From: Janthinobacterium saanense
Lineage (GTDB): Bacteria > Pseudomonadota > Gammaproteobacteria > Burkholderiales > Burkholderiaceae_D
Direction of reading: 5' to 3'
Length of the DNA stretch: 64,000 nt
Assembly (NCBI RefSeq): GCF_014200675.1
Contig: NZ_JACHCI010000017.1
Location: forward strand, 1 to 64,000
Part shown: positions 6,694-20,313 of the stretch, in pieces
Layout of the letters: every line of letters begins with the position of its first letter
Numbering within the stretch: position 1 is the first letter of the stretch
Position numbers and translations under genes: made by a program
The notes under the pieces: generated by a model
Seen by the model: only the letters and a program-made list of their open reading frames with translations
What the model was told of the DNA's origin: nothing
Databases searched by the model: none

Positions 6694-8070
6694 ATGAACG
6701 TTGTCATTCTCGCCGCCGGCATGGGCAAGCGCATGCAATCTGCCCTGCCCAAAGTATTGCATCCGCTGGCGGGCAAGCCGCTGCTGTCGCACGTGATCGA
6801 TACGGCGCGCAGTCTGGCGCCGTCCAAATTATGCGTCATTTATGGACATGGGGGCGCAGCGGTGCTGAAGTTGCTGGAGCAATACAATGCCACGCACGAG
6901 CTGCCGATTGCCGCTGCCGAACAGGCGCAGCAGCTGGGCACCGGCCATGCCGTCCAGCAAGCGCTGCCTTTGCTCGATGACCACGTGCCGACGCTGATAC
7001 TGTATGGCGACGTGCCGCTGACCAGCGCCGTTTCCCTACAGCACCTGGTTCAAGCGGCTGGCCGCGACAAGCTGGCGATTTTGACGGTGGAACAGGATGA
7101 TCCCTTCGGCCTGGGCCGCATCGTGCGCGAAGACGGCGCCATCGTGCGCATCGTCGAAGAAAAAGACGCGACCAATGCCGAGCGTGCCATCCGTGAAATC
7201 AATAGCGGCATCATGGTCGCGCCGACCGTGCAACTGAAGAAGTGGCTGTCGGCCTTGTCGAACAACAATGCGCAAGGCGAATATTATCTGACCGACATCG
7301 TGGCCCAGGCCGTGGCAGACGGCGTGACCGTCACCTCGGCCCAGCCTGGCGCCGTGTGGGAAGTTGCCGGCGTCAACAGCAAGGTGCAACTGGCCCAGCT
7401 GGAACGCATCCACCAGAACAATATCGCGCAAGCCCTGCTCGAACGTGGCGTGACCCTGCTCGACCCGGCCCGCATCGACGTGCGTGGCGAACTCATTTGC
7501 GGGCGCGATGTCACCATCGACGTCGGTTGCGTATTCGAAGGCCTGGTGGAACTGGGCGACGGCGTGCGCGTGGGCGCCAATAACGTGCTGGTCAATGCCA
7601 AGGTGGCGGCTGGCGCGCACATCAAGCCGTTCTGCCATATCGAAGACGCGGTGGTTGGCGCCGGTTCCCTGATCGGCCCTTACGCGCGCTTGCGTCCCGG
7701 TACCGTGCTGGCCGAAGAAGTGCACATCGGTAACTTCGTCGAAGTCAAGAATAGCCAGATCGCTGCCCGCAGCAAGGCCAACCATCTCGCCTACATCGGC
7801 GACGCCACCATCGGTTCGCGCGTCAACGTGGGCGCCGGCACCATCACCTGCAATTACGATGGCGTCAACAAGTTCCGCACGGTCATCGAAGACGATGCCT
7901 TCATCGGCAGCGACAGCCAGCTGATCGCGCCGGTCACGGTGGGCAAAGGCGCGACCCTGGGCGCCGGCACCACCCTGTCGAAAGACGCGCCAGCGGGCAA
8001 GCTGACTGTCTCGCGCGCCAGGCAAGTGACGATCGAAGGCTGGACCCGTCCGGTCAAGATCGCCAAGTAA
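6694..8070 (+). CDS. glmU: Bifunctional GlmU: glucosamine-1-P acetyltransferase / UDP-GlcNAc pyrophosphorylase
   Basis: GlmU acetylates glucosamine-1-phosphate and couples the product to UTP, giving UDP-GlcNAc for peptidoglycan and LPS. The 458-residue protein shows the uridylyltransferase motif [18 protein letters not shown] at residues 5-22, YGDVPL near residue 106, and a left-handed beta-helix of hexapeptide repeats in the C-terminal half. The helix contains [11 protein letters not shown] and [12 protein letters not shown] with the acetyltransferase active-site histidine. Length is standard. A strong terminator follows. glmS, the first enzyme of the same pathway, lies 1.3 kb downstream in the same direction, separated by a non-coding block and an AsnC-type regulator. 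Confidence 0.97.
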
Positions 8071-8094
8071 GATCGCCAGGTAAATTGGTACAGC

Positions 8095-8128
8095 GCCGCC
8101 AGCCTACACGGGCTGGCGGCTTTTTTTT
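8095..8128 (+). terminator. Rho-independent terminator of glmU
   Basis: A perfect 10-bp stem GCCGCCAGCC / GGCTGGCGGC (8095-8104 and 8111-8120) with a six-base loop, followed by eight T residues (8121-8128), 24 bases after the glmU stop. Confidence 0.93.
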
Positions 8129-8142
8129 GCCTTCAGACTGCC

Positions 8143-8706
8143 TGTGGGTAAGCTTGTGGAAATGATGCTGACAAGTCGGGATAACTTGAGGGGTTTATCT
8201 ATTCTTTCTTCTGGGTATTATTTCCCATTGTGGATAAACATGTGAACAAGCGCCCGTATAAGTGATGGATAAGGCTTGTATAAGCACTGTAGAAGTGGTG
8301 TAAAAGCAGTGGAAAAAATGGGATAAGTTTGCTGCGCTTAGCCTGCCATTCGCCTTGCTGTCCTTGCTATGATCAGCACAAAATCACTGCCTGAATTTGC
8401 GCATCTGCAATGTGGATAAGCTTGTGCGTAATTACTGGATAATCGATGAATAACTTGTAAGCTATTGAATTGGCTGTATATTTTAGCTTGTATGGCGTAT
8501 CGCCCTTGTGGGTAAATCTGTGTACAAGCCTGTGATTAGCATGTGGGCAAGCAGCGGATAAGATGGGATAACTTACTACTGCCAGCTTACCCATGATTTT
8601 TCCACAGGGCACTTTTTAGCATGGCTGAGGCTGCAGTGTCGTGAGGCGCTGTGTATGCCTGTGGATAAGATTGTGCATAAGGTGGCTAACAAGCCGGGAT
8701 AACTTG
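8143..8706. other. Cluster of DnaA-box-like 9-mers in non-coding DNA
   Basis: The 600 bases between glmU and the AsnC-type gene have no convincing reading frame but hold a degenerate repeat array. TGTGGATAA, the complement of the DnaA box TTATCCACA, occurs exactly at 8229-8237, 8411-8419 and 8660-8668. TGTGCATAA (TTATNCACA type) is at 8672-8680. TTTTCCACA is on the other strand at 8598-8606. One-mismatch forms are at 8143-8151, 8423-8431 and 8507-8515. A companion motif GGGATAACTT recurs at 8178, 8565 and 8696. The copies form a looser unit of about 50 bases. A DnaA-titrating or replication-control locus is possible. No dnaA, dnaN or parAB genes are nearby, so it is not obviously oriC. Confidence 0.6.
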
Positions 8707-8730
8707 CCAGCGCTCTTGCCTGGGATGCGA

Positions 8731-9213
8731 TTACACGGCGATGCGCGTCTCGAACTTGCTGCGGAAGGTAGAAAAATACGCTTTCACATTGCGCACATTG
8801 GCGTGCGTGGCAAACAGCCGGTGCGCCAGCGCATGGTAGGCGGGCATGTCGGCCACCTGCACGATCAGCACGAAGTCCGGCCCCGGCGAGACGCGGTAGC
8901 ATTGCAGTACGGCAGCTTCCTGGGCCACCAGCTGTTCGAATTGCTCCATGCGCTCAAACGCCTGCACATCGAGCGTGATTTCCACGATGGCGCTCAAGCG
9001 TGCGCCCACCATGTGCGGCGCGACGATGGCCACTTGCCGCTCGATCACGCCGCTTTCCGTCAAATGTTTGACGCGCCGCAGACAAGTTGGCGCCGACACA
9101 TGAACTTCTTGCGCCAGCTCACTATTGGTTTGCGTTGCATCAACTTGCAAGGCATTCAGGATGCGACGATCAATATCGTCCAGGGTGATGGTACTAGTGG
9201 CTGGGCTGTTCAT
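8731..9213 (-). CDS. AsnC/Lrp-family transcriptional regulator
   Basis: A 160-residue Lrp/AsnC regulator. The N-terminal helix-turn-helix covers residues 10-60 (LDDIDRRILNALQVDATQTN, then SAPTCLRRVKHLTESGVI). The C-terminal ligand-binding RAM domain follows (ILQCYRVSPGPDFVLIVQV-like segment, here VLQCYRVSPGPDFVL). These proteins form octamers, usually bind an amino acid, and commonly repress themselves. A perfect inverted repeat 35 bases upstream of the start fits autoregulation. It is divergent from glmS, but a link to amino-sugar synthesis is only positional. Confidence 0.93.
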   Translation of the reverse strand: MNSPATSTITLDDIDRRILNALQVDATQTNSELAQEVHVSAPTCLRRVKHLTESGVIERQVAIVAPHMVGARLSAIVEITLDVQAFERMEQFEQLVAQEAAVLQCYRVSPGPDFVLIVQVADMPAYHALAHRLFATHANVRNVKAYFSTFRSKFETRIAV

Positions 9214-9247
9214 GAGTTTGATGAATTTAAAAAGAAAATCACGTTAA

Positions 9248-9264
9248 ATGAAATAATATTTCAT
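9248..9264. promoter_or_regulatory. Inverted repeat in the asnC-type / glmS divergent region
   Basis: ATGAAAT-aat-ATTTCAT, perfect 7-bp arms, sits in AT-rich DNA 35 bases upstream of the AsnC-type start and 110 bases upstream of glmS. A partial copy (ATGAAATATTT) follows at about 9277. AT-rich palindromes of this kind are typical Lrp-family targets. Confidence 0.5.
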
Positions 9265-9374
9265 CGTTAAATATACATGAAATATTTGGTCAAAAGTGAC
9301 TGGATTTAGAAAGCTTATTTCATACGCTCTGCTTTAGCATGCCTGCATTCACCATTTTCTAACGCGAGGTTTCC

Positions 9375-11204
9375 ATGTGCGGCATCGTCGGCGCAGTAGC
9401 GCAACGTAATATCACTCCCATCCTGCTCGAAGGCTTGAAGCGCCTGGAATACCGCGGCTACGATTCATGCGGCATCGCCCTGCACGCCGATGGCCGTTTG
9501 CAGCGTTCGCGCTCCACCTCGCGCGTGGCCGAGCTGGAAAAGCAGATCGCCGAAGAAGGCTTGAGCGGTTTTACGGGCATCGCCCACACGCGCTGGGCCA
9601 CGCATGGCGCGCCTGTCAACTTCAATGCCCACCCGCACTTTTCTCCAAGCGAAGAAAACGCCCGCGTAGCGCTGGTGCACAACGGCATCATCGAAAACCA
9701 CGACGAATTGCGTGCCGAACTGACGGCCTTGGGTTATGTGTTCCAGAGCCAGACCGATACCGAAGTCATCGCCCACCTGGTCGAGCATATGTATAACGGC
9801 GACTTGTTCGACACCGTGCAGCAAGCCGTGAAACGCCTGGACGGCGCGTACGCGATTGCCGTTTTCTGCCGCGACGAACCGCACCGGGTGGTTGCGGCGC
9901 GCCAGGGCTCGCCACTCATCGTGGGCCTGGGCAATGGTGAAAACTTTGTCGCCTCGGACGCCATGGCGCTGGCCGGCACCACCGACCAGATCATCTACCT
10001 GGAAGAAGGCGACGTGGTCGACCTGCAACTGTCGCGCTGCTGGATCGTCGACGTCAACGGCAAGCCGGTCGAACGCGATGTCAAAACCGTGCACGCGCAT
10101 ACCGGTGCGGCCGAACTGGGCCCCTACCGCCACTATATGCAGAAGGAAATCTTCGAACAGCCACGCGCCATTGGCGATACGCTCGAAGGCGTCACGGCCA
10201 TCATGCCTGAACTGTTTGGCGACCATGCCTACAAAATCTTCAAGCAGATCGACCGCGTGCTGATCCTGGCTTGCGGCACCAGCTCGTATGCGGGCATGAC
10301 GGCCAAGTACTGGATCGAATCGATCGCCAAGATCCCCGTCAGCGTGGAAGTGGCCAGCGAATACCGCTACCGCGATAGCGTGCCGCACCCGAACACCCTG
10401 GTGGTGACCATCTCGCAAAGCGGCGAAACGGCCGACACCCTGGCCGCGCTGAAACATGCGCGCAGCCTGGGCATGCAGCACACCTTAACCATCTGCAACG
10501 TGGCCACCAGCGCCATGGTGCGCGAATGTGCGCTGTCCTACATCACGCGCGCCGGCGTGGAAGTGGGCGTCGCCTCGACCAAGGCCTTCACGACGCAGCT
10601 GGCCGGCCTGTTCCTGCTGACCCTGTGCCTGGCGCAAGTCAACGGCCGCCTGTCCGAAGAACAGGAAGCGGCCCACCTGAAAGCCATGCGCCACCTGCCC
10701 GTCGCCATCGCCTCCGTGCTGGCGCTGGAACCGCAAATCATCGCCTGGTCCGAAGAATTCGCCCGCAAGGAAAACGCCCTCTTCCTGGGCCGCGGCATGC
10801 ATTACCCGATCGCCCTGGAAGGCGCCTTAAAGCTGAAAGAAATTTCCTACATCCACGCCGAAGCCTACCCTGCCGGTGAGCTGAAACACGGCCCGCTGGC
10901 GCTGGTCACCAACGAAATGCCGGTCGTCACCATCGCGCCGAACGACGCGCTGATCGAAAAGCTGAAATCGAACATGCAGGAAGTGCGCGCCCGTGGCGGC
11001 CAACTGTACGTCTTCGCCGACGTGGATTCGCGCATCAGCTCCGGCGAAGGCCTGCACGTCATCCGCCTGCCAGAACACTACGGCGATTTGTCACCGATCC
11101 TGCACGTGTGCGCACTGCAATTGCTGGCGTACCACACGGCACTGGCGCGTGGGACGGATGTGGATAAGCCAAGGAATTTGGCGAAGTCGGTGACGGTGGA
11201 GTAA
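9375..11204 (+). CDS. glmS: Glutamine-fructose-6-phosphate aminotransferase (isomerizing)
   Basis: GlmS makes glucosamine-6-phosphate from fructose-6-phosphate and glutamine, the entry step to UDP-GlcNAc. The 609-residue protein begins [12 protein letters not shown], with Cys2 as the glutaminase nucleophile after Met removal. It has RWATHG and [11 protein letters not shown] in the class-II amidotransferase domain (to about residue 240), then two SIS sugar-isomerase domains ([25 protein letters not shown]) and the C-terminal [12 protein letters not shown]. The end of glmS is the classic recognition site for Tn7-type TnsD targeting. Here the DNA immediately downstream indeed carries Tn7-like end repeats. 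Confidence 0.98.
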
Positions 11205-11233
11205 TTAGTGACGTACGTCATCGGTGAAGCGAG

Positions 11234-11270
11234 ACAATAAAGTCCGTCGGAGAACAATAAAGTCCGTCGG
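11234..11270 (+). repeat. glmS-proximal TnsB-like binding repeats (two copies)
   Basis: ACAATAAAGTCCGTCGG occurs at 11234-11250 and again at 11254-11270, 20 bases apart, in direct orientation. The first eleven bases match the core of the Tn7 TnsB-binding site. Confidence 0.8.
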
Positions 11271-11414
11271 GCTTTTTTGTTGTCAATTGCGCATTCCCAT
11301 CAAGACCGCCACTAATCCCTGCTCCAACACGGTCATGCATTCCTACGTCAAAGCGGCCAGCCTCCTCCCTCCTCTACTGAGACGCCTCTCCGTTTGTCAT
11401 GGTTCGTACAGTTG

Positions 11415-11498
11415 TTGACACCGGACTTCGTCTGCGTTAAAGTGTGTTTAACAACGCCTGCACGGGGCCGGTCATCAAAGCAAGAACGATAGTTCTTG
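11415..11498 (+). promoter_or_regulatory. Candidate promoter and leader palindrome of the Abi_2 gene
   Basis: A consensus -35 TTGACA at 11415-11420 is followed, after 17 bases, by TAAAGT at 11438-11443. Downstream in the leader lies a perfect inverted repeat CAAGAAC-gata-GTTCTTG (11481-11498). The rest of the 380-base gap between glmS and the Abi gene shows nothing else recognisable. Confidence 0.4.
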
Positions 11499-11584
11499 TG
11501 TCCGGTCTGTGTAGGCTTTTTAACGTCCGTACTGACCAGATCGCGGTGAGCTATGGCTAAAATAGCAATTTCCAACATATCCCC

Positions 11585-12688
11585 ATGAGCATGGAGTTGA
11601 AGTTGAAGTCTATCCGCAGTGCTTGCAAATCTGTCGCACTGTCGACCCTCCTCGGGAAGTCATATTTCAAATGGCATGTAAAGCGTCAAACAGCAAAGGC
11701 CAGCGCTGAACGAAAGCGGCTTTGGGAGGAATTCCAAACTGAAAACCCTAATCTTGCCGACTACAACAAGCCATATTGCACGCCTCGTCAATTGGTGCAT
11801 AAACTCACGTTAGAAGGTCTCGTCGTTTCGGATCGCGCAATAGCAGAGGAAGTAATTTTTCGGGAAAATTACTTCCGTTTCAAAGCATACTGCATCCCAT
11901 TTTTTAACAAAAACACCGACAAATTCCATACCGGCACGACATTCGAAGATCTGCACGGGTTGTACTGCGCTGACCAGAAATTGAGAGACTTCTTGATTCC
12001 GCTTTTAGCTCAACTGGAGGTACGGATTAGGGCGACTGTAGATAACGTCGTAACGAGCACGACGAGCGATCCGTTTTGGCATATCAATACTGACTACTTC
12101 AAAAATTTCTCAGATGCGGAAAGAGCGTTAAGTAAAGCACAACAACGCTTTAACCAAGGTCAGCAAGAATTCGTCGTTCACTATCGTAAACGATATTTCA
12201 CCAACCGCTCATACGACTACAGACGTACTCCACCATTTTGGATCATTTCGGAAATATTTACTCTCGAACAGTTGCTGAGCGTATGTAAAAGCTTGAACGA
12301 GAACTGTCCAACGTTTTCGGCTTCTGCTGGTCAAAGCAAACTGGAAACAGCTGCGAAGCCGTTCGGGATTGCTTCTTATAGTTCGTTAATGACAAATTTA
12401 AGTTGTATCCTTGAACTGCGTAACTTGTGTGCACATCACAGCCGGCTGTGGAACCGAAATCTTAAGAATCCTGCTGGTTTAAAGAATAAGCATTCAATAA
12501 AGGCTAGCCATCCGAATCGGCTGTATTCGCATCTTCTGATGATACGCCTTGCCTGCAAAGCACAGGGGATCTCTGACGGCATAAAACCGTTTATGGTGAA
12601 TATGTTTGCTACTGTACCCGTGTTTTCACGAGATATGGCAAACATGGGTTTTCCTTCAGATTGGGAAAATGACACTGTCTGGCAGTAA
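11585..12688 (+). CDS. Abi_2-family abortive infection protein (HEPN-like)
   Basis: A 367-residue protein of the Abi_2 (AbiD/AbiF) family, linked to phage abortive infection. Family features are the N-terminal KPYCTPRQLVHKLTLEGLVV segment near residue 62, ENYFRFKAY near residue 94, and the C-terminal ELRNLCAHHSRLWNR. The last contains Arg279-x4-His284, the HEPN ribonuclease signature. It is therefore likely an RNA-cleaving toxin-like effector that stops growth on infection; that function is inferred from the family. It is the only gene between the two Tn7-like ends. Its base composition is clearly AT-richer than the glm genes beside it, consistent with transfer. An alternative start is the ATG at 11591. 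Confidence 0.85.
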   Translation: MSMELKLKSIRSACKSVALSTLLGKSYFKWHVKRQTAKASAERKRLWEEFQTENPNLADYNKPYCTPRQLVHKLTLEGLVVSDRAIAEEVIFRENYFRFKAYCIPFFNKNTDKFHTGTTFEDLHGLYCADQKLRDFLIPLLAQLEVRIRATVDNVVTSTTSDPFWHINTDYFKNFSDAERALSKAQQRFNQGQQEFVVHYRKRYFTNRSYDYRRTPPFWIISEIFTLEQLLSVCKSLNENCPTFSASAGQSKLETAAKPFGIASYSSLMTNLSCILELRNLCAHHSRLWNRNLKNPAGLKNKHSIKASHPNRLYSHLLMIRLACKAQGISDGIKPFMVNMFATVPVFSRDMANMGFPSDWENDTVWQ

Positions 12689-12847
12689 TGTTTAACAGAT
12701 TGCCATTACACTCTCGGGTTTAGATCGAACGAACGTATCGCAGCCGGTACAGCCAATTCGTTGCTGCGAATGCCGCGCTTGGCGGCCCAGGCCAGTGTCA
12801 CAGCGCTGATGTACACCGGGCCGCTAGCGGCCTACTCACTTGCACAC

Positions 12848-12995
12848 TCCGACGGACTTTCGCCGTCTTTGATCTAATTCGGTTGGATTATCGCTGTTTC
12901 CGACGGACTTTACGTTGAATTGCTGTTAGAAAAAAAGCTCAAGAAATCAAAATCATAGAATTTTTCTTTCCGACGGACTTTATTGACTCGACTCA
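12848..12995 (-). repeat. Distal TnsB-like binding repeats (three copies)
   Basis: TCCGACGGACTTT at 12848-12860, TTCCGACGGACTTTA at 12898-12912 and TTTCCGACGGACTTTATTG at 12967-12985 are the complements of the glmS-proximal repeats, spaced about 51 and 71 bases. The outermost is the fullest copy and lies next to the element end at 12995. The remaining 12689-13290 gap holds only AT-rich DNA and the second end described separately. Confidence 0.75.
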
Positions 12996-13040
12996 GGCTG
13001 AATAATTTAAATTATGTATTTCACATTACTTAGTTAGGCT

Positions 13041-13062
13041 TGTAAATCGAAACAATAAAGTC
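13041..13062 (+). repeat. Second Tn7-like end, facing the ATPase gene
   Basis: TGTAAATCGA followed by AACAATAAAGTCTGTC. The core ACAATAAAGTCT at 13052-13063 matches the Tn7 TnsB site better than the first element's repeats do, and it points rightwards. It starts 46 bases beyond the end of the first element, as expected for stacked insertions at one attachment site. Only one copy is seen. Confidence 0.5.
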
Positions 13063-13290
13063 TGTCTAACTTTTTGCACAAGCAAGACTCTACCTGTCGT
13101 TATATTATTCGCTTGCTTCAGGTAGCTAACATTGAAGTACTGTTGCGTGGTTGATACAAAGAAATATACATTCTGCGAATAAAGCTTAGCAATAAGTATT
13201 TTTCTATTTTTGATAACTTTTTAGCTTCCAACAGATCCGAATTACGATACAGTTAGTAGCGTTATGGAAATATTTTTTTGAAAGAAGAAT

Positions 13291-15912
13291 ATGACGCTAC
13301 TGGCCCAAGTCCTTCAATGGTCGAACTCGAGTTTAAAACCTTGGCAACAGGATGCTGCTCGACGGCTTTTTCAGAACTCCTTAGACAACAATGCTCTAGA
13401 TGACCTTTATGCGATGTTGAAGAGTAGCGTCGGGCTTCCGGACCCTAAAGGCAGGACGCCTGTCCCCCTATCTCAGGAGCACCTACCTGTAACAGCTGCA
13501 AAGGATGCTGCCGCAGTTTTGATTACGCTTAAGGACGTGAGGAACGTCAATAGGCTAGCAGCCGGTCAGATCCTGTCCTTTTCAAAGACGGGGGTTACCG
13601 TCGTTTATGGCGGGAACGGGGCCGGGAAGTCTGGCTACTCGCGTGTGCTGAAGCGTGCCTGCCGGGCTCGTGATGCCAGCGAGGAAGTTCGCCCAAATGC
13701 TCTAGACAAGGCCAGCGCAACCGCAACTCCTGAAGCAAGCTTTGAGATAGAACTCGGTGCCAAGGCATCTACTGTTACCTGGAAGAAAAACGGTACCGGT
13801 CCGGTTGAACTTGCTACCATAGCCGTTTTTGACACGCATTGCGCACGTGCTTACCTCGATTTGCAGCAGGAAATCGCGTACCTGCCCTACGGGCTGGACG
13901 TCGTGGAGAACATGGCTCAAATTGTACTGCCGAAAGTACTGGAAAAACTGAACGCGGAAATCGCGTTGACTTCTACTACGAAGGAAGCATTTAACCATTT
14001 GGCAGGAACTACAAAAGTATCCGCGCTTATTGACTCATTGAGCGAGAAGACCAACAGCGCGGACGTCGAAGCGTTTGCCTTGATGAGCGTAGACGAGACT
14101 GCGCGGATGGGAGAACTGGGCCGAACCCTCAGTGAAGCTGATCCGAAGGCAAAAGCGAAAGAGCTGCGGCTAGCGATTGGACGTATGAATGCGTTAAAGA
14201 CCAAAGTCGAGTCGTCATCGAACTGGGTTAAGAACGACGCCGTTCATAAGTTTCGGACCATGGACGAAGAGGCAGAAAAGGCGTTCGCCGCGGAGACAGA
14301 AGCCGCCAACGCATTGCGCGCGGGAGAGACACTTTTACCAGGGACTGGCGACGTTCTGTGGAAGGCGATGTATGAAGCTGCGAAGCAGTTCTCGTTGGGC
14401 TCGGCGTACCCGACGCAGGTGTTTCCCCGTGTGCATGACGGCGCGAAGTGTTTACTATGCCAGCAAAATATTTTGGATGACGGCGCGGCTCGTATGAGGC
14501 GATTCGAAGAGTACGTCCAGCACAATGTCGCCAAGCTCGCAGCTGACAAGCGGGCTGTACGAGCCACTGCAATTGGCAAGATTGAGAGAGCATCCCTTGG
14601 TATCGACTACCAAGACTATGTTGAGGAGCTAAATCACCTCGATCAGAGCGTGGTGGCCGAGCTCAATGCGTTCGACAGCGCTATTTCGGCTAGGCAAAAA
14701 TGGATGCTAGCTTCGCAGAGTGCACATATATGGGAGGGGATTCCGGAATTCCCGACCGATCCTTGCATAAAACTGAAGGCGATTGCGGACGCTCTCACTA
14801 CGCAGGCAGAGGCTTATGAAAAGGCGACGGACGATAAGCATAAGCTTCTGCTGAAGGCGGAACTTGCGGAACTGAAGGCGCGAGCCGCGCTATTTCCTCA
14901 CAAGGCCGCCGCCCTTGCGTTGATTGAGCGTATGAAAGTCAAGGCATTGCTGAGTAAATGCAAGGACGATCTGAAGACCAAACCTATTTCTGACAAATCT
15001 AAGGAGCTCGCAACCAATGCTGTCACTGGGCCTTTGCGTCAAGCCTTAAAGGAAGAGTTCGACGCGTTGGGGGTTGCTCACATGGCACCGCGCTTAGACG
15101 AGAGCGTGGAACGCGGCAAGATGAAGCACAAGCTAGCGCTGGACATTGTCGTTCCAGCCCAGATCCGCGACATCTTGAGCGAGGGTGAGCAGCGCGCAAT
15201 CGCGCTTGGCTGCTTCTTAGCCGAACTGCGGACCGGAGGTCACGGAGGGGGAATTATTTTCGACGATCCCGTTTCTTCGTTGGACCACACTAGGCGACAG
15301 AACGTAGCAAGGCGCCTAGTCGAAGAGGCGAAAGTCAGGCAAGTGATCATCTTCACACATGATACTTCTTTCCTAGGTGAGCTTCGCGACTTGATCGAGC
15401 AAACGGGCGTTGAACACCTAATTCACCACCTCGAATGGCATGGCCAGTTCTCCGGTGCGGTACAAAGTGGTCTGCCTTGGGAGCACAAGAGCTACAAGGA
15501 CCGTATCGATAAACTGCAGAAGGCGCAATCAGTGCTGGTGGCGGGCTGGCCGCCTTATCCCAATGGGGAGCAGTCAGCAGCCATGAGGCAGCAGTACAAC
15601 TTAATGCGGGCGACAATCGAACGCGTAATTCAAGACTTGGTATTTAACGGAGTGGTGGTCAGGTACCGGGACTGGATTAGGGTAACGCCAAACCTTTCCA
15701 AGGTGGTCGGTTTCGAAAAGACAGAGTGTGACGAGATCGAACGCCTTTACCAAGTTTGCTGCGATGTGGTTGACGCCCACGATCCGGCGTCCGCAAAGAA
15801 TGCGCCAGTCCCAACGGCAACTCAATTGGGGCAGGACATCGCTGCGCTCGTCGCCCTTACCGGTACGATCGAGATTCGCAGGAAATCCCAAGCAGCCAGC
15901 GGAAAATCTTAG
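13291..15912 (+). CDS. SMC/Rad50-like zinc-hook ATPase, RloC-like defence candidate
   Basis: An 873-residue ABC-type ATPase of the AAA_13/RloC-like kind. Walker A GGNGAGKS is at residues 108-115, the ABC signature LSEGEQ at 629-634, Walker B IIFDDPVSSLD at 655-665 and the H-loop FTHD at 688-691. Between the two halves lies a charged helical insertion with CLLC at 387-390, a zinc-hook motif as in Rad50 and RloC. After the ATPase core, Arg773-x3-Glu777 and His830 could correspond to the Arg-Glu-His triad of PrrC/RloC anticodon nucleases; this is a tentative match with wider spacing. The start at 13291 follows GAAAGAAG. AT-richer than the core genome. Probable anti-phage effector, not proven. 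Confidence 0.7.
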   Translation: MTLLAQVLQWSNSSLKPWQQDAARRLFQNSLDNNALDDLYAMLKSSVGLPDPKGRTPVPLSQEHLPVTAAKDAAAVLITLKDVRNVNRLAAGQILSFSKTGVTVVYGGNGAGKSGYSRVLKRACRARDASEEVRPNALDKASATATPEASFEIELGAKASTVTWKKNGTGPVELATIAVFDTHCARAYLDLQQEIAYLPYGLDVVENMAQIVLPKVLEKLNAEIALTSTTKEAFNHLAGTTKVSALIDSLSEKTNSADVEAFALMSVDETARMGELGRTLSEADPKAKAKELRLAIGRMNALKTKVESSSNWVKNDAVHKFRTMDEEAEKAFAAETEAANALRAGETLLPGTGDVLWKAMYEAAKQFSLGSAYPTQVFPRVHDGAKCLLCQQNILDDGAARMRRFEEYVQHNVAKLAADKRAVRATAIGKIERASLGIDYQDYVEELNHLDQSVVAELNAFDSAISARQKWMLASQSAHIWEGIPEFPTDPCIKLKAIADALTTQAEAYEKATDDKHKLLLKAELAELKARAALFPHKAAALALIERMKVKALLSKCKDDLKTKPISDKSKELATNAVTGPLRQALKEEFDALGVAHMAPRLDESVERGKMKHKLALDIVVPAQIRDILSEGEQRAIALGCFLAELRTGGHGGGIIFDDPVSSLDHTRRQNVARRLVEEAKVRQVIIFTHDTSFLGELRDLIEQTGVEHLIHHLEWHGQFSGAVQSGLPWEHKSYKDRIDKLQKAQSVLVAGWPPYPNGEQSAAMRQQYNLMRATIERVIQDLVFNGVVVRYRDWIRVTPNLSKVVGFEKTECDEIERLYQVCCDVVDAHDPASAKNAPVPTATQLGQDIAALVALTGTIEIRRKSQAASGKS

Positions 15913-16092
15913 GTCTACATAGATATCCCTTTGCAAACAGAATCCAACTCAACGCCATCGGCGGCGTCAAACTGCGCGGGTGCCCACTGAATCGTGCTTC
16001 GGGGGGAGGCACCTGCCGTGTTCGAGGTTCATTGGATAAAGTCAGCTCCACGCTAAATTGCGCATACTTCTACGCTAGTAGCGTCGCGGCGT

Positions 16093-16374
16093 TCATGGCC
16101 TCCGCACCAAGAAGGTATCGAGCGCACTTCGTTGGGTTGACAGCTTCTCCAAGCCGCTAACAAGCTCAACAGGGATCGAGGCGCGGCATGCGGCGCATCC
16201 CGCCTGTAAGAGATTCAGCATCTTCTTGGCCATTGGCTCCTTGCTACCGATAGCAGACTCGAGTATTGGAATCGTCATGCGCGGATTCACAAGTAACGCC
16301 GGAGTGAAAATATGCTGTCGCCACTGGTGCGAGAAGGCTGCATAGAATGCATCCAATGAATAGTCAAAGACCAT
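16093..16374 (-). CDS. Doubtful hypothetical protein or decayed gene
   Basis: A 93-residue frame starting at ATG 16374 (MVFDYSLDAFYAAFSHQW) with a protein-like composition and a CAAC motif (LLQAGCAACRAS). I recognise no family. Upstream frames on the same strand also have coding-like pieces, for example a stretch with IIFTGGGDAA at about 16427, but in another frame, which suggests frameshifts in an older gene. The 860 bases from 15913 to 16771 otherwise hold only short repeats near 16451-16642. Confidence 0.3.
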   Translation of the reverse strand: MVFDYSLDAFYAAFSHQWRQHIFTPALLVNPRMTIPILESAIGSKEPMAKKMLNLLQAGCAACRASIPVELVSGLEKLSTQRSALDTFLVRRP

Positions 16375-16450
16375 TCGCCGACTAGCGGTAGAATTCGGCG
16401 ATCCGCTGCAGCATCGCCTCCGCCCGTGAAAATAATTTCTGGCAGTGATA

Positions 16451-16642
16451 CGTCGGATTTTTGCGCGATTGCCACGGCGAGCCCCCATTGATTGTCTGAA
16501 AAATGACGTATTGTGCCTGATTTTGTCGAAAAATCGTGCTAATCAACCGATCAGGGGCTTGTCGGAATTTGTGTAGATAGGCGCAATCAGAAACTCCAGT
16601 ACGTCCAAATACTGTCGTATTTGGCAAAATTTTGTCGGATTT
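16451..16642 (+). repeat. Short dispersed repeats at the right edge of the island
   Basis: Variants of TGTCGGATTT recur within 190 bases: CGTCGGATTT at 16451, TTTTGTCG at 16521, TTGTCGGAATTT at 16559, TGTCGTATTT at 16613 and TTTTGTCGGATTT at 16630. Arrays of this kind mark transposon ends that bind several transposase subunits (Tn7/Tn5053-like), but no transposase gene is adjacent. Confidence 0.4.
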
Positions 16643-16771
16643 ATGGCTTATTCTGGTCAGACGAAGTCCTCACCAGGCATAAAAGCCGAGTCGCGCCAGT
16701 TATACGGTGGTGGTATTGACGTGCATGCGTAGCGAGGCCGGATGCGATTTCGTTACAGGGCGGTGCATCTG

Positions 16772-17641
16772 CTAGTCGCGACCACGATACTGCTCCACCC
16801 ACTTCACCGACTGCGCAATCCCGCCAAATGGAAAGAAATGCAGGCTGACCTTGCCATGGGCTGCTGTCAGGCTGGTAGCCAGGCGATCCACAAAAAGATC
16901 GGGGCCTGCCGTGCCGAACAGTTTGCCGATGGAGACGCCGTATTTGGACCACATCGAGGCGCAGGCGCTGACGCCGCAGAGGGCAGCATAGCGGGCCAGC
17001 ACTGCGATGTTCGCGGGGCCCGGTACGCCCACGCGCACGGGATGGTTGATGCCGCGCTGGCGCAGCGCTGTTAACCATGTCAGGACGATGTCGGCATCAA
17101 AGGCAAACTGGGTGACGATCAAGGGTGTCATGCCGCGCTGGACGATGTTGTGGCACTTGCGTTCGAGCACTTCCCATTGCTCTTCCGTGCTCATGACTGG
17201 ATGGCCTTCCGGGTGGCCACCCACGCCGATCAGCTTGATGCCCGAACGCTCGAAGACGCCTGTTTCGATCAGCGAAGTACTGTCGGAAAACGGCCCCATC
17301 GGGGTCGATGGATCGCCGGCGATCACGAAGCAGCGCTCGACGCCGGCTTCGGCGGCCGCGCGGCTGACGAAGGTCTCAAACTCGGCGAGCGAGGCGATAC
17401 GGCGCGCAGAAAAGTGCGGCATGGGCTCAAAGCCGAGTCTGCGCACGGCCTGCACTGCAGCCAGTCGCGCCGCGTTGTCTTCGCGTGGCAAATAGGGAAT
17501 GGAAATGGTTGACCCGGGCAATATGCGGGGCGCCGCTGCGGTCAAGGCAGCAATGTCCTTCGCACCGACTTCCAGGGAATAGGCGTGCGTGATGTGGCTG
17601 GCGGGCAGCGGAAGCGCTTTGTAGTCGACGCAGGCGTTCAT
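16772..17641 (-). CDS. metF: Methylenetetrahydrofolate reductase family protein
   Basis: A 289-residue TIM-barrel protein of the MetF family, which reduces 5,10-methylene-tetrahydrofolate to 5-methyl-tetrahydrofolate with a flavin. Visible family features are SLEVGAKD near the N-terminus (catalytic Glu), PHFSARRI around residue 80, CFVIAGDPSTPMG around residue 105, IGVGGHPEGHP, and TQFAFDADIVLTW around residue 183. Its start overlaps the stop of metR by four bases, so the two are translationally coupled. It is unusual to find a methyl-folate producer beside MesD, which is reported not to need methyl-folate. It may serve a different methyl route or be a diverged paralogue. Confidence 0.85.
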   Translation of the reverse strand: MNACVDYKALPLPASHITHAYSLEVGAKDIAALTAAAPRILPGSTISIPYLPREDNAARLAAVQAVRRLGFEPMPHFSARRIASLAEFETFVSRAAAEAGVERCFVIAGDPSTPMGPFSDSTSLIETGVFERSGIKLIGVGGHPEGHPVMSTEEQWEVLERKCHNIVQRGMTPLIVTQFAFDADIVLTWLTALRQRGINHPVRVGVPGPANIAVLARYAALCGVSACASMWSKYGVSIGKLFGTAGPDLFVDRLATSLTAAHGKVSLHFFPFGGIAQSVKWVEQYRGRD

Positions 17642-18540
17642 CGCTTGGCTTCTGCGATCACCGGCTGGCGGGCCAGTTCGATGAAGGCCCGCACGTAGTC
17701 AGTGGCGGTGTCCGTTTCGCGTGCGCCCAGGAAGATCTGCTTGGCAACGCCGCGCACACCCAGCCGCACAGGCACCACGTCCATCTTGACCGCGTATTCC
17801 TCGACTAGCCAGCGCGGCAGGGCGGCCACACCGCGGCCGCTGGCCACCATCTGCAGCATGATGTCGGTGGTTTCGATGGCTTTGTGGCGCTTGGGCGTGA
17901 CGCCGGCCGGCAACAGGAACTGATTGTAGATGTCCAGGCGCTCGATATCCACCGGGTAGCTGATGAGCACTTCCTGGGTCAGTTGCTGGGGTTTCACATA
18001 GGCCGCCGACGCCAGGGCATGGCCCTTGGCCACCACCAGCACTTGCTCATAGTCGAACACGGGTTCGAACTTCAGCCCCGGCTTGAACAGCGGGTCGGGC
18101 GTGACCAGCAGGTCGATCTCGTAGCCGAACAGCGCACCGATCCCGCCGAACTGGAACTTTTGCTTGACGTCCACATCCACGTCGGGCCATGCACTCAGAT
18201 AGGGCGAAACCACTTTGAGCAGCCACTGGTAGCAAGGGTGGCATTCCATGCCGATGCGCAAGGCACCGCGCTCGCCCTGCGCGAACTGGCCCAGGCGTTC
18301 CTCGGCCAGGTCCAGTTGCGGCAGCACCCGGTTCGCCACCGCCAGCAGGTACTGGCCGGCCTGCGTCAGGCGCAGGTTGCGCCCTTCGCGCAGCCAGACG
18401 TCGGTGCCCAGTTGCTGTTCCAGTTTCTTCATGCTGTGGCTCAGGGCCGACTGGGTCAGGTTCAGCACGCCCGCGGCAGCCGTCAACGAGCCTTGTTTCT
18501 CGACCTGTTGAACGATGCTGAGGTGGATGCGTTCAAGCAT
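17638..18540 (-). CDS. metR: MetR-like LysR regulator
   Basis: A 300-residue LysR regulator closely resembling MetR, the homocysteine-responsive activator of methionine genes. The HTH covers residues 5-60 (GSLTAAAGVLNLTQSALSHSMKKLEQQLG). In the effector domain IGMECHPCYQWL, VLISYPVDIERLDIYNQFLLPAGV and QMVASGRGVAALPRWLVEE parallel the E. coli MetR sequence very well. It leads a leftward pair with metF. It faces the FMN reductase-mesX-mesD genes across 127 bases containing repeated ATGAA/TTCAT half-sites, so it is the probable regulator of the whole locus. Confidence 0.9.
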   Translation of the reverse strand: MLERIHLSIVQQVEKQGSLTAAAGVLNLTQSALSHSMKKLEQQLGTDVWLREGRNLRLTQAGQYLLAVANRVLPQLDLAEERLGQFAQGERGALRIGMECHPCYQWLLKVVSPYLSAWPDVDVDVKQKFQFGGIGALFGYEIDLLVTPDPLFKPGLKFEPVFDYEQVLVVAKGHALASAAYVKPQQLTQEVLISYPVDIERLDIYNQFLLPAGVTPKRHKAIETTDIMLQMVASGRGVAALPRWLVEEYAVKMDVVPVRLGVRGVAKQIFLGARETDTATDYVRAFIELARQPVIAEAKR

Positions 18541-18554
18541 TTGGATGAGCCCTA

Positions 18555-18589
18555 TTCATGGATGTATGAAATAAAACCATTATACTTCA
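18555..18589. promoter_or_regulatory. MetR-type half-sites in the divergent control region
   Basis: TTCAT (18555-18559), ATGAA (18566-18570) and TTCAT (18585-18589) give two overlapping inverted arrangements between metR and the FMN reductase gene. The MetR consensus is built from TGAA and TTCA half-sites. The spacing here differs from the usual five bases, so the exact site is inferred. Confidence 0.5.
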
Positions 18590-18667
18590 TCGATCTCTGC
18601 CGCTATCATCGCTTCCTCGTTGTTGGCATTTCTTTGCCCTCGCACAGCTATCGATAGGAAAGAAAAA

Positions 18668-19249
18668 ATGACACGTCCATTGCGTTTAGTAGGGGTTTCC
18701 GGCGGGCTGCAACGCCCCTCCAAGGCTGCCGCCCTGACCGAGCACCTGATGGACCTGATCGCCGACGCATTCCCGTGCGAACAACGCCTGGTCGAACTGG
18801 GCCAGCTGGCACCGCAGTTTGCCGGCGCGAGCTGGCGCACCCATTTGCCCGAGACGGTGGAGCGTGAACTGTTAGCAGTCGAGCAAGCGGACATCCTGGT
18901 GGTGGCAACGCCGGTCTACCGCGGCTCCTACACGGGACTGTTCAAGCACTTCTTCGACTTCATTGACCAGGATGCCCTGATCGACAAGCCCGTTTTGCTG
19001 GCGGCCACCGGCGGCAGCGAGCGCCATGCCCTGATGATAGACCACCAGTTGCGGCCGCTGTTCAGCTTCTTCCAGGCACGCACATTGCCGCTGGGCGTCT
19101 ACGCGACCGACAAGGATTTCTTTGATTACCGTTTGCAGGACGAGGCCCTGATCGAGCGCGCCGCACTGGCGGTGCAACGGGCAATGCCCCTGGTCGAATT
19201 GACGCGCCATGCAAGATTTGCCACCGCCGGGGAGGTGGTCGCGGCTTGA
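18668..19249 (+). CDS. NAD(P)H-dependent FMN reductase (MsuE-like)
   Basis: A 193-residue flavodoxin-fold FMN reductase. ATG 18668 follows AGGAAAGA and begins MTRPLRLVGVSGG, whose GVSGGLQRPSKAA loop binds the flavin phosphate. VVATPVYRGSYTGLFKHFFD around residues 78-97 and AATGGSERHALMIDHQLRPLFSFF around 115-138 are typical of MsuE/SsuE-type enzymes. These supply reduced FMN to two-component monooxygenases. As the first gene ahead of mesX and mesD, it plausibly delivers FMNH2 to an oxygen-dependent step of that system. This is an inference from operon position. Confidence 0.88.
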   Translation: MTRPLRLVGVSGGLQRPSKAAALTEHLMDLIADAFPCEQRLVELGQLAPQFAGASWRTHLPETVERELLAVEQADILVVATPVYRGSYTGLFKHFFDFIDQDALIDKPVLLAATGGSERHALMIDHQLRPLFSFFQARTLPLGVYATDKDFFDYRLQDEALIERAALAVQRAMPLVELTRHARFATAGEVVAA

Positions 19250-19329
19250 AAAGAACAAAAATTGTAAAGCACTGAATACGCAATCACGTTATTCAGATTT
19301 TTTCGCAGAAATCAGGACACCAGATCACC

Positions 19330-20313
19330 ATGAGCAAAGATTTTGAATTTAACATCAAGAGTATTTCTTTCGATGAAAACTATCATCCATCAGACAATAC
19401 GCGTTTGACGACCAACTTTGCCAATCTGGCCAGAGGAGCGAGTCGCCAGGAGAACCTGCGCAATACCCTGAAGATGATAGACAATCGCTTCAATAACCTG
19501 GCGCATTGGGATAATCTGAAAGGTGATCGCTATTCTGTCGAACTCGACATCATTTCCGTTGAGATGAATATTGATGGCGCAGACGGCAATAATGCACTGC
19601 CCTTGATCGAGATATTGAAACCGAATATCGTCGATAAAAAAACCGAAGAACGCATCGATGGCATTGCCGGGAATAACTTCTCCTCGTACGTGCGCGATTA
19701 CGACTTCAGCGTGGTGCTGCCAGAGCATAACAATAATAAATCCAGCTTCAGCATCCCGGATAATTTCGGCGATTTCCACGGCAAGCTGTTCAAACACTTT
19801 GTAAAATCAGCCACTTACAAAGCGCACTTTAAAAAGCCGCCGGTGATCTGTATCAGTGCCTCGAGCAGCAAGATTTATCAGCGGACTGAAAACAAGCATC
19901 CCATCTTGGGTGTCGAGTATCAGCAAAATGAATTTTCGTCGACTGATCAATATTTCGAAAAAATGGGCATGCAAGTCCGTTACTTCATGCCGCCCAACAG
20001 TTTTGCACCTTTGGCATTTTATTTTATCGGTGATCTGCTGGGTGACTACACGAATCTTGAGCTGATCGGCACCATCAGCACGATGGAGACATTCCAAAAG
20101 ATTTACCGGCCCGAGATTTACAATGCCAATTCGGCGGCGGGGCAACTTTATCAGCCTAGCCTGAAGAATCAGGATTATTCATCGACGCAAATTGTCTATG
20201 ACCGGGAAGAGCGCAGCCAGTTGGCTGTCAAGCAGGGAAAATATACCGAAGAGCATTTCATCAAGCCCTATAAAAATGTTCTTGAACAATGGGCTGCTAA
20301 TTACGCTCTCTGA
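19330..20313 (+). CDS. mesX: DUF1852 protein MesX, required for MesD
   Basis: A 327-residue protein of the DUF1852 family. It opens with SKDFEFNIKSISFDENYHPSDNTRLTTNFANLARG, characteristic of the family, and later has RYFMPPNSFAPLAFYFIGDLLGDYTNLELIGTISTMETFQKIYRPEIYNANSA in short conserved blocks. Published genetics on MesD show that this family is needed, together with oxygen, for folate- and cobalamin-independent methionine synthesis; its chemistry is unknown. It lies 80 bases after the FMN reductase and 27 bases before mesD on the same strand, so the three are likely one transcript. Confidence 0.9.
   Translation: MSKDFEFNIKSISFDENYHPSDNTRLTTNFANLARGASRQENLRNTLKMIDNRFNNLAHWDNLKGDRYSVELDIISVEMNIDGADGNNALPLIEILKPNIVDKKTEERIDGIAGNNFSSYVRDYDFSVVLPEHNNNKSSFSIPDNFGDFHGKLFKHFVKSATYKAHFKKPPVICISASSSKIYQRTENKHPILGVEYQQNEFSSTDQYFEKMGMQVRYFMPPNSFAPLAFYFIGDLLGDYTNLELIGTISTMETFQKIYRPEIYNANSAAGQLYQPSLKNQDYSSTQIVYDREERSQLAVKQGKYTEEHFIKPYKNVLEQWAANYAL

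Follow-up and report, generated by a model that had tools for sequence, protein, structure and literature searches.

What is the short unit of DNA that directly follows glmS in Janthinobacterium saanense, and did it arrive there as a mobile element in its own right? The window analysed here is the stretch of 64,000 nucleotides that opens contig NZ_JACHCI010000017.1 (assembly GCF_014200675.1, forward strand), and the unit in question occupies positions 11225–12995, a 1,771-bp segment (about 1.8 kb) that a preliminary description, made from the letters of the window, had read as a non-autonomous miniature Tn7-like element at the glmS attachment site carrying one anti-phage gene. We consider it highly probable that the unit belongs, as a non-autonomous member, to a divergent Tn7-like group whose elements have TGA termini and duplicate 4 bp of the target; comparison with related genomes establishes its anatomy and its kinship as far as sequence can establish them.

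Anatomy of the element

The glmS gene (9375–11204, plus strand) is an open reading frame with SIS and GATase domains. Its 3' end, at approximately 11169–11204 of the plus strand, is the presumed target of TnsD, the exact stretch being our own estimate from the fact that the TnsD protein of Tn7 recognises the 3' end of glmS (PMC11406308). Between the stop codon and the element lies a 20-nt flank (11205–11224) that differs from the 37 other glmS loci read. The right end (11225–11271, plus strand) faces glmS 20 nt after the stop, as compared with 23 nt in two relatives, Janthinobacterium sp. ROICE36 and genome G186, and consists of the terminus TGAAGCGAG and two TnsB-type sites (11236–11250 and 11256–11270) placed 20 bp apart. 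The left end (12849–12995, minus strand) has the terminus TGAGTCGAG, in minus-strand reading, and three more widely spaced sites at +12, +82 and +133. The underlying 17-mer, ACAATAAAGTCCGTCGG, is exact on the plus strand at 11234–11250 and 11254–11270, its first copy starting 30 nt past the last base of the glmS stop codon (11202–11204), and it recurs on the minus strand beyond the Abi_2 gene at 12970–12986 (1 mismatch), at 12900–12916 (3 mismatches) and, as an exact 14-bp part, at 12847–12860. With up to 3 mismatches it has six matches in the window, where 0.07 would be expected and none of 100 shuffles reaches six; one of the six (11264–11280) is merely the partial palindrome of copy 2, and another (13052) is part of a further end outside the claimed element. 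The outermost 27 nt of the two ends (11225–11251 and 12969–12995) form an inverted repeat that is 89% complementary. The repeats, their asymmetry, with the packed end toward glmS, and the terminal inverted repeat are therefore as the preliminary description had them, and the comparisons given below bear out the contrast between two packed and three spaced sites.

Scattered copies of the repeat, which would have spoken for something other than a transposon end, are not seen: the core CAATAAAGTCNGTC, allowing 1 mismatch, occurs four times in the 6.1-Mb genome, and every occurrence lies at the glmS locus. This confinement, together with the presence of a 367-aa gene, rules out a miniature inverted-repeat transposable element. 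Tblastn with 17 Tns proteins detected no tns-like gene within 11225–12995 at E 0.01, in agreement with the earlier statement that the unit holds none, and the genome as a whole yielded no match to models of TnsA, TniQ and TnsD or to the TnsB query of the group. The zero obtained with PF15978, the TnsD model, is weak alone, as its control matched nowhere, but the model does match the TnsD proteins of the autonomous relatives G288 and G198. Since no tns genes were detected in the element or, by these models and this query, in the genome, we file the unit as a non-autonomous derivative and not as a complete Tn7-like transposon.

Empty sites and a sibling insertion in the genus

The 3' end of glmS was matched in 39 of 40 genomes of the genus, and the sequence behind it was read in 38 of them, including the window and ROICE36 (G305) and omitting G346 (no match) and G350 (a 31-bp match). 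In the window, whose glmS 3' end is typical of the genus, a host gene resembling MTHFR (16772–17641, minus strand) begins to match 5,571 bp past the glmS stop, as compared with 50–218 bp in eight of the 38 loci, where it closely follows glmS. The insertion polymorphism that the preliminary description had proposed to look for does exist, with these eight congeners representing sites with a short gap.

When the window insert was compared with the congener loci, the most significant foreign matches were 96 bp to G190 (86%) and 47 bp to ROICE36 (100%). The latter is the ROICE36 right end, which is identical at 47 of 47 positions to window 11225–11271, starting with the TGA terminus; because the flanks on both sides differ between the two genomes, the border of the right end is exact. 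The gene behind this shared end in ROICE36 is a different one, the anti-phage gene PD-T7-1 (E 2.2e-164). The other end of the ROICE36 element, on a different contig, aligns with the window left end at 72% identity (159 columns); when the first 26 bp are set aside, the identity is still 0.68, as against a maximum of 0.56 in 200 shuffles. Site spacing is nearly the same in the two left ends (12/82/133 in the window, 12/81/132 in ROICE36). Both flanks of the ROICE36 element carry GGGC, and removal of one GGGC copy leaves GCCGCCCCGGGCCATCAATA, which agrees at 19 of 20 bases with GCCGCCCCGGGCCATCAAGA in the empty site of G320. By its sequence, the ROICE36 element is a clean insertion at glmS.

By eye, 14 of the 38 loci have Tn7-like end repeats after glmS, of several distinct types and in some cases stacked (e.g. 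L094 and L095), and the tns-bearing end type of G092 recurs on another contig of G244.

A family of ends and its autonomous members

Paired sites proved too strict as a search pattern, returning four stretches in genome_contigs, none in viral_contigs, 6 of 392 genomes of the family and 1 of 399 genomes of the taxonomic order, the window's own. It did, however, lead to ROICE36, which was recognised as G305 by an identical contig position and sequence. The single-end pattern TGANNNNNNNNAATAAAGTYNGTCG worked better and is present in 57 of the 392 family genomes and 12 of 44 genera, with none for its reversed control among the matches listed. Eleven elements were compared side by side, a site being counted with up to 4 mismatches of 15 letters. 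All eleven have right-end sites at +12 and +32 and a left-end site at +12; a second left-end site at +71 to +82 is present in nine, as is a third at +121 to +134.

TnsA (PF08722) is matched in 16 of the 57 end-bearing genomes and TniQ in 25, and by the union of the two lists neither model is matched in 31, which include the window's genome and ROICE36; genus-wide, TnsA is found in 12 and TniQ in 17 of 40 genomes, with neither in the window's genome. At E 0.001, no Pfam model recognises the TnsA and TnsB proteins of G288 or G198; absence judged by PF08722 alone is therefore weak evidence, and TnsB itself was used as a query. The TnsB of the group, searched against 58 genomes (the 57 and G190, among them seven of the 40 genomes of the genus), matched strongly in 6 of the 57 (E <1e-140) and weakly in G190, G164, G186 and G153 (1e-7 to 5e-4), with no match in the window's genome or in ROICE36.

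Three members are autonomous. In G288 and G198, which belong to one other genus, ends of the group type at glmS enclose a tnsA-like gene (328 aa in each), tnsB (694 and 697 aa), tnsC (486 and 470 aa) and two genes with TniQ domains, and G068 has a similar set inside its ends, with no glmS within the fetched stretch. The G288 proteins match those of Tn7 (TnsB to Tn7 TnsB 7pik, E 1.2e-6; TnsA to 1f1z, E 8e-4; TnsC to 7rzy, E 1.3e-3) and its TnsD matches PF15978 (E 2.9e-24), so that kin with the same end layout as the window element carry Tn7-homologous tnsABC and tnsD. The relationship to Tn7 claimed in the preliminary description is upheld for the ends and for the machinery of these kin, but it is a relationship to a divergent group that duplicates 4 bp and not to Tn7 proper. 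Cargo in the complete elements includes Septu (PtuA E 6e-205, PtuB E 1.3e-98) and type I restriction-modification genes in G288; among four scanned proteins of G198, one, an HNH protein, has a partial match to a defence model (PDC-M68A, E 4.4e-22), and of two in G068 one has a weak match.

In G217 (L161:16070–16200), the right end of a TGA element without tns genes stops 46 bp before a tnsABC-TniQ operon that lies outside the element and reads away from that end; in G225 (L163:5980–6110), an end-like site is present some 50–60 bp upstream of tnsA; and in G164 (L165), a right end of another type abuts the same kind of operon. Is the region upstream of tnsA a target site, or have transposase genes been stranded outside their ends?

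Related site pairs were found in 17 plasmid records at E up to 1, and intergenic pairs 20 bp apart are seen on Pseudomonas plasmids (L104, L106), a Diaphorobacter plasmid (L105) and an Endozoicomonas contig (L005), and the annotated stretches listed for these four include no tns gene. The two Pseudomonas plasmid pairs were rejected as members of the group, their sites being imperfect and a TGA terminus lacking. A TnsB of the group is present, at 97% coverage, on plasmids of P. koreensis (p1, 34.7% identity) and Pseudomonas sp. CIP-10 (36.4%); no window-type site with up to 2 mismatches occurs in the 47 kb around the TnsB gene of P. koreensis p1.

A 4-bp target duplication

An exact 4-bp repeat stands at both sides of 7 of the 12 elements examined, namely G186 (TCTT), G240 (GTAG), G288 (GTTA), G198 (AAAA), G170 (CAGG), G068 (TCAC) and ROICE36 (GGGC), and the remaining five (the window, G152, G148, G014 and G217) have no duplication. 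Across 28 convergent pairings of ends, some of which need not be real elements, a 4-bp repeat is found in 8, where 0.11 would be expected. Where TGA ends stand in tandem, exactly 4 bp separate them in all four junctions; the three junctions involving a TGT end measure 3, 4 and 5 bp, and in G247 two further left ends are each followed by 4 bp and then TGAT. A 2024 review gives a 5-bp duplication for Tn7 and all related elements. The 5-bp duplication thus expected of Tn7-like transposons is found neither in the window, which has none, nor in the group, where it is seen in 0 of the 28 pairings. Four duplicated bases in place of five mean that the two strand-transfer events are staggered differently, contrary to the rule stated for Tn7 relatives, and make the group TnsB a worthwhile subject for structural work.

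Mobility and its alternatives

How could a unit without transposase genes have come to lie behind glmS? An autonomous relative in the same cell would supply the cognate TnsB together with TnsA and TnsC, which would pair both ends of the element, and TnsD bound at the 3' end of glmS would set the site and orientation of insertion. Upon loss of the helper, the cargo would then remain as stable chromosomal immunity. The element most likely arose from an autonomous ancestor by internal deletion, and shrinkage may have come before or after landing. That the 1.8-kb unit itself was moved in trans is what we infer, as the preliminary description also did. As to the group as a whole, the evidence seems to us evenly balanced on whether this Tn7-like group, besides breaking the 5-bp rule, lives mainly as a satellite population, made up of cargo units that lack a transposase, in some cases hold just one defence gene, and depend on rare autonomous helpers for insertion at glmS and elsewhere. 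If this is true, short cassettes that can be exchanged are the form in which immunity genes are distributed.

The group has further transposase-less members besides the elements of the window and of ROICE36. The G186 element, 14,254 bp at glmS, has a 4-bp duplication and no tns genes inside, its genome's TniQ genes and distant TnsB lying on another contig; its cargo comprises, according to PADLOC, a DUF5131 gene (PDC-M41B, E 2e-42), Shedu (E 9e-161) and Wadjet (JetA E 1.6e-236, JetB E 2.9e-5). The 16.1-kb element of G130 has as its sole tns-like match a stretch of 32 aa at E 0.027. The G240 element (9.0 kb), which follows a gene resembling amtB by eye, carries an MFS transporter, hydrolases and a LysR gene, and that of G170 (4.8 kb) an IS-type DDE transposase and unknowns, with four of its proteins giving no defence match. 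At glmS in G014, a 10.3-kb element without a duplication holds usher and fimbrial genes and a phosphorelay sensor; a weak match to CARF (E 3.2e-6) in this element was taken for a shared helix-turn-helix and set aside. Defence cargo is frequent at glmS but is not the rule.

Two further arrangements were noted. Near glmS in G148 (L141:3083–4017), a converging pair of TGA ends without a duplication encloses 935 bp with two small open reading frames, perhaps a near-geneless relic, and in G164 (L175:5531–13021) ordinary chromosomal genes, among them LysR and MesX genes of the kind seen close to glmS, lie between a TGT end and a TGA end that share a 4-bp repeat.

A number of observations weigh against movement in trans. 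No identical unit without tns genes was found at two sites. Of the strong pairs returned by that two-site search, two were followed and rejected, one being an IS66-like segment carrying an end (by eye) and the other a segment enclosing host genes in G164; the remaining strong pairs, which were not pursued individually, resembled chromosomal genes outside the elements. At the borders of the window copy there is no target duplication, and none of the other loci fetched contains its 20-nt glmS-side flank, even with 4 mismatches allowed. Complete Tn7-like elements, which the preliminary description had proposed to search for, are present in the family, where they share the end layout and lie at glmS, but no autonomous helper with ends of the CCGTCGG subtype was found. 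Transposase-less elements away from glmS, and that of G014 at glmS, carry non-defence cargo. Finally, the middle of the ROICE36 element falls, unseen, into a gap between two contigs of an assembly in which TnsA, TniQ and the group TnsB were not found, and just inside the ROICE36 right end there is a 38-aa stretch, VPDETLFSLCSRHHYLW, that resembles the N-terminus of TnsD (tblastn E 0.007 with G288 TnsD and 0.15 with G198 TnsD; pairwise E 4e-7) and also, by eye, a sequence in the congener G168.

By its resemblance, this stretch is likely a tnsD fossil, and the ROICE36 element would then probably be the deletion product of a tnsD-bearing ancestor; the same deletion origin is likely for the window element, in which no tnsD trace is found at E 0.01. 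The fossil makes shrinkage after insertion a real alternative to movement in trans. In that case, what landed at glmS was an autonomous element; deletion later removed its tns genes but left its ends and one useful cargo gene, and the short unit never moved by itself. We regard this as possible but doubtful. It would account for the TnsD-like fragment of ROICE36 and for the failure to find one tns-less unit at two sites; however, the window element has no tns trace of any kind at the threshold used, exact 4-bp duplications have been kept by five elements without tns genes inside (G186, G240, G170, G130 and, as far as it is seen, ROICE36), and 31 of the 57 end-bearing genomes match neither TnsA nor TniQ.

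The missing duplication of the window copy bears on two further explanations. One is that homologous recombination within and around glmS, and not transposition in this genome, brought the unit in, which would also fit the unusual 20-nt flank after the glmS stop. We think this unlikely, the glmS 3' end being genus-typical, and recombination here would in any case be compatible with the element being a transposon elsewhere. The other, which we consider quite unlikely, is that the ends at 11225 (right) and 12995 (left) derive from two stacked insertions and were joined by deletion or recombination, such that the unit is a chimaera and not a transposon at all. Remnants of further ends do adjoin the element and tandem stacks are common in the family, but the CCGTCGG form of the site is common to both window ends, as it is to both ends of ROICE36, and the pair keeps the spacing of the ROICE36 pair (12/32 and about 12/82/133). 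Regulatory or terminator repeats in place of transposon ends, which a small terminator-like hairpin overlapping copy 2 of ACAATAAAGTCCGTCGG (11259–11275) and the plasmid site pairs lacking tns genes in the annotated stretches listed might suggest, are virtually out of the question, as the ROICE36 insertion with its exact borders and duplication already refutes them and the same ends surround autonomous Tns-bearing elements.

The cargo gene and its upstream RNA

On the reading of 11225–12995 as a non-autonomous Tn7-like element, its single cargo is the gene at 11585–12688 (plus strand), which encodes an AbiD-type Abi_2 protein of 367 aa (Pfam PF07751 E 2.4e-36; PADLOC AbiD E 2.5e-49; PDB 8vz6 E 3.8e-26) and which agrees with the 1.1-kb gene of anti-phage type described before. 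The HEPN motif has the form R-x(4-6)-H, into which RNLCAH, noted by eye in the Abi_2 translation, fits. Probably the protein acts in abortive infection as an RNase toxin of the HEPN type, with a presumed role in phage defence. Relatives at E 1e-20 were found in 4 of the 392 family genomes, the window's own included. One of them, in G254 of another genus (L101), is 73% identical and truncated, and lies in a different place with no such ends nearby.

Upstream of the gene, at 11456–11516 (plus strand), lies a predicted hairpin RNA with a T run behind it (z −4.95, a value that none of 200 shuffles equals), preceded at 11415–11443 (plus strand) by a promoter-like TTGACA-17-TAAAGT that agrees with the consensus at 10 of 12 bases; a promoter scan of the element gave 3 sites as against 3.0 in shuffles, which is no excess. 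G254 keeps the hairpin, and by eye the promoter-like spacing is visible there as well. In the alignment of these two sequences, 95.2% of cells pair and four pairs are changed on both sides, a result equalled by 29 of 500 shuffles, and sliding the partners of the hairpin lowers pairing to 50% or less. This gives moderate support to a conserved hairpin structure upstream of AbiD-type genes. Rfam gave no match at E 0.5 in 8000–20000. An Abi_2 protein of C. difficile has as its antitoxin an RNA located upstream of abiF (PMC12373285), and by analogy the hairpin RNA may have a similar antitoxin role here, in which case it would probably restrain the Abi toxin until phage infects. The two systems resemble each other in having a structured RNA directly upstream of an Abi_2 (AbiD/F) protein gene, but differ in that AbiF-RCd22 has two abiF motifs, where the RNA of the window is one long hairpin without an Rfam match and with a putative role. 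The AbiD gene and its hairpin RNA make a compact test case for RNA-controlled HEPN toxins.

Relation to known elements

The window element resembles Tn7 in its asymmetric ends with the core AATAAAGTC, which we take to be the core of the Tn7 ends, in having its right end toward glmS, and in its autonomous kin with homologues of TnsA, TnsB, TnsC and TnsD. It differs from Tn7 in that it has no tns genes, in that its group duplicates 4 bp where Tn7 duplicates 5 bp, and in its two right-end sites and its TGA termini, those of Tn7 being TGT. In a mini-Tn7, two ends and their cargo are placed after glmS by Tns proteins acting in trans. Such elements are in use for delivery in the laboratory (one instance is PMC12137116), and the likeness to them extends to the two ends and cargo at glmS, the differences being that the window element is natural and has other ends and other transposition machinery.

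Natural Tn7-like elements have been surveyed from their transposition genes. Benler 2021 (PMC8649781) defined borders from the sequence around tnsB and described defence cargo between arrays of TnsB sites, a likeness to the present element; scanning around tnsB, its design leaves elements without tnsB outside, and in its main text the terms 'nonautonomous', 'glmS' and 'target site duplication' are absent. Faure 2023 (PMC10293859), mined from tnsC, mentions, in the part available, recruitment of target selectors in trans and not of transposases. In the literature covered, no report was found of non-autonomous Tn7-like elements at glmS, Tn7-like elements of Janthinobacterium or a 4-bp Tn7 duplication; subscription papers fall mostly outside that coverage, and absence from print is not implied. 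Since the ends occur in 57 of 392 family genomes and a strong group TnsB in only 6 of the 57, much of the mobile pool may escape surveys that start from tnsB, which miss the cargo of elements without it. Detection from the ends yields exact borders and points to cargo such as AbiD, PD-T7-1, Shedu and Wadjet.

Neighbouring insertions

The element is one part of a larger island. Just outside its left end, a second layer of ends (about 12999–13066) lies within the remnants of one or two older right ends (12999–13102, plus strand), of which 13007–13102 is the 96-bp segment that is 86% identical to G190, where it stands right after glmS. Farther on, a candidate defence gene of type PDC-S06 (13291–15912, plus strand; PADLOC E 1.8e-187, Pfam AAA_13 E 6.9e-20) belongs to the same island but lies outside the element. 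The preliminary description mentions neither this gene nor the second layer of ends nor the hairpin RNA upstream of the Abi gene. Near the far border of the island, 16494–16645 holds spaced repeats resembling TTGTCGGAATT and TTGTCGGATTT, which fit none of the end types studied and are perhaps the left end of yet another type of element. Host sequence resumes, by eye, from about 16735, and the glmS locus as a whole consists of stacked insertions, in which one gene is a probable and another a candidate defence gene.

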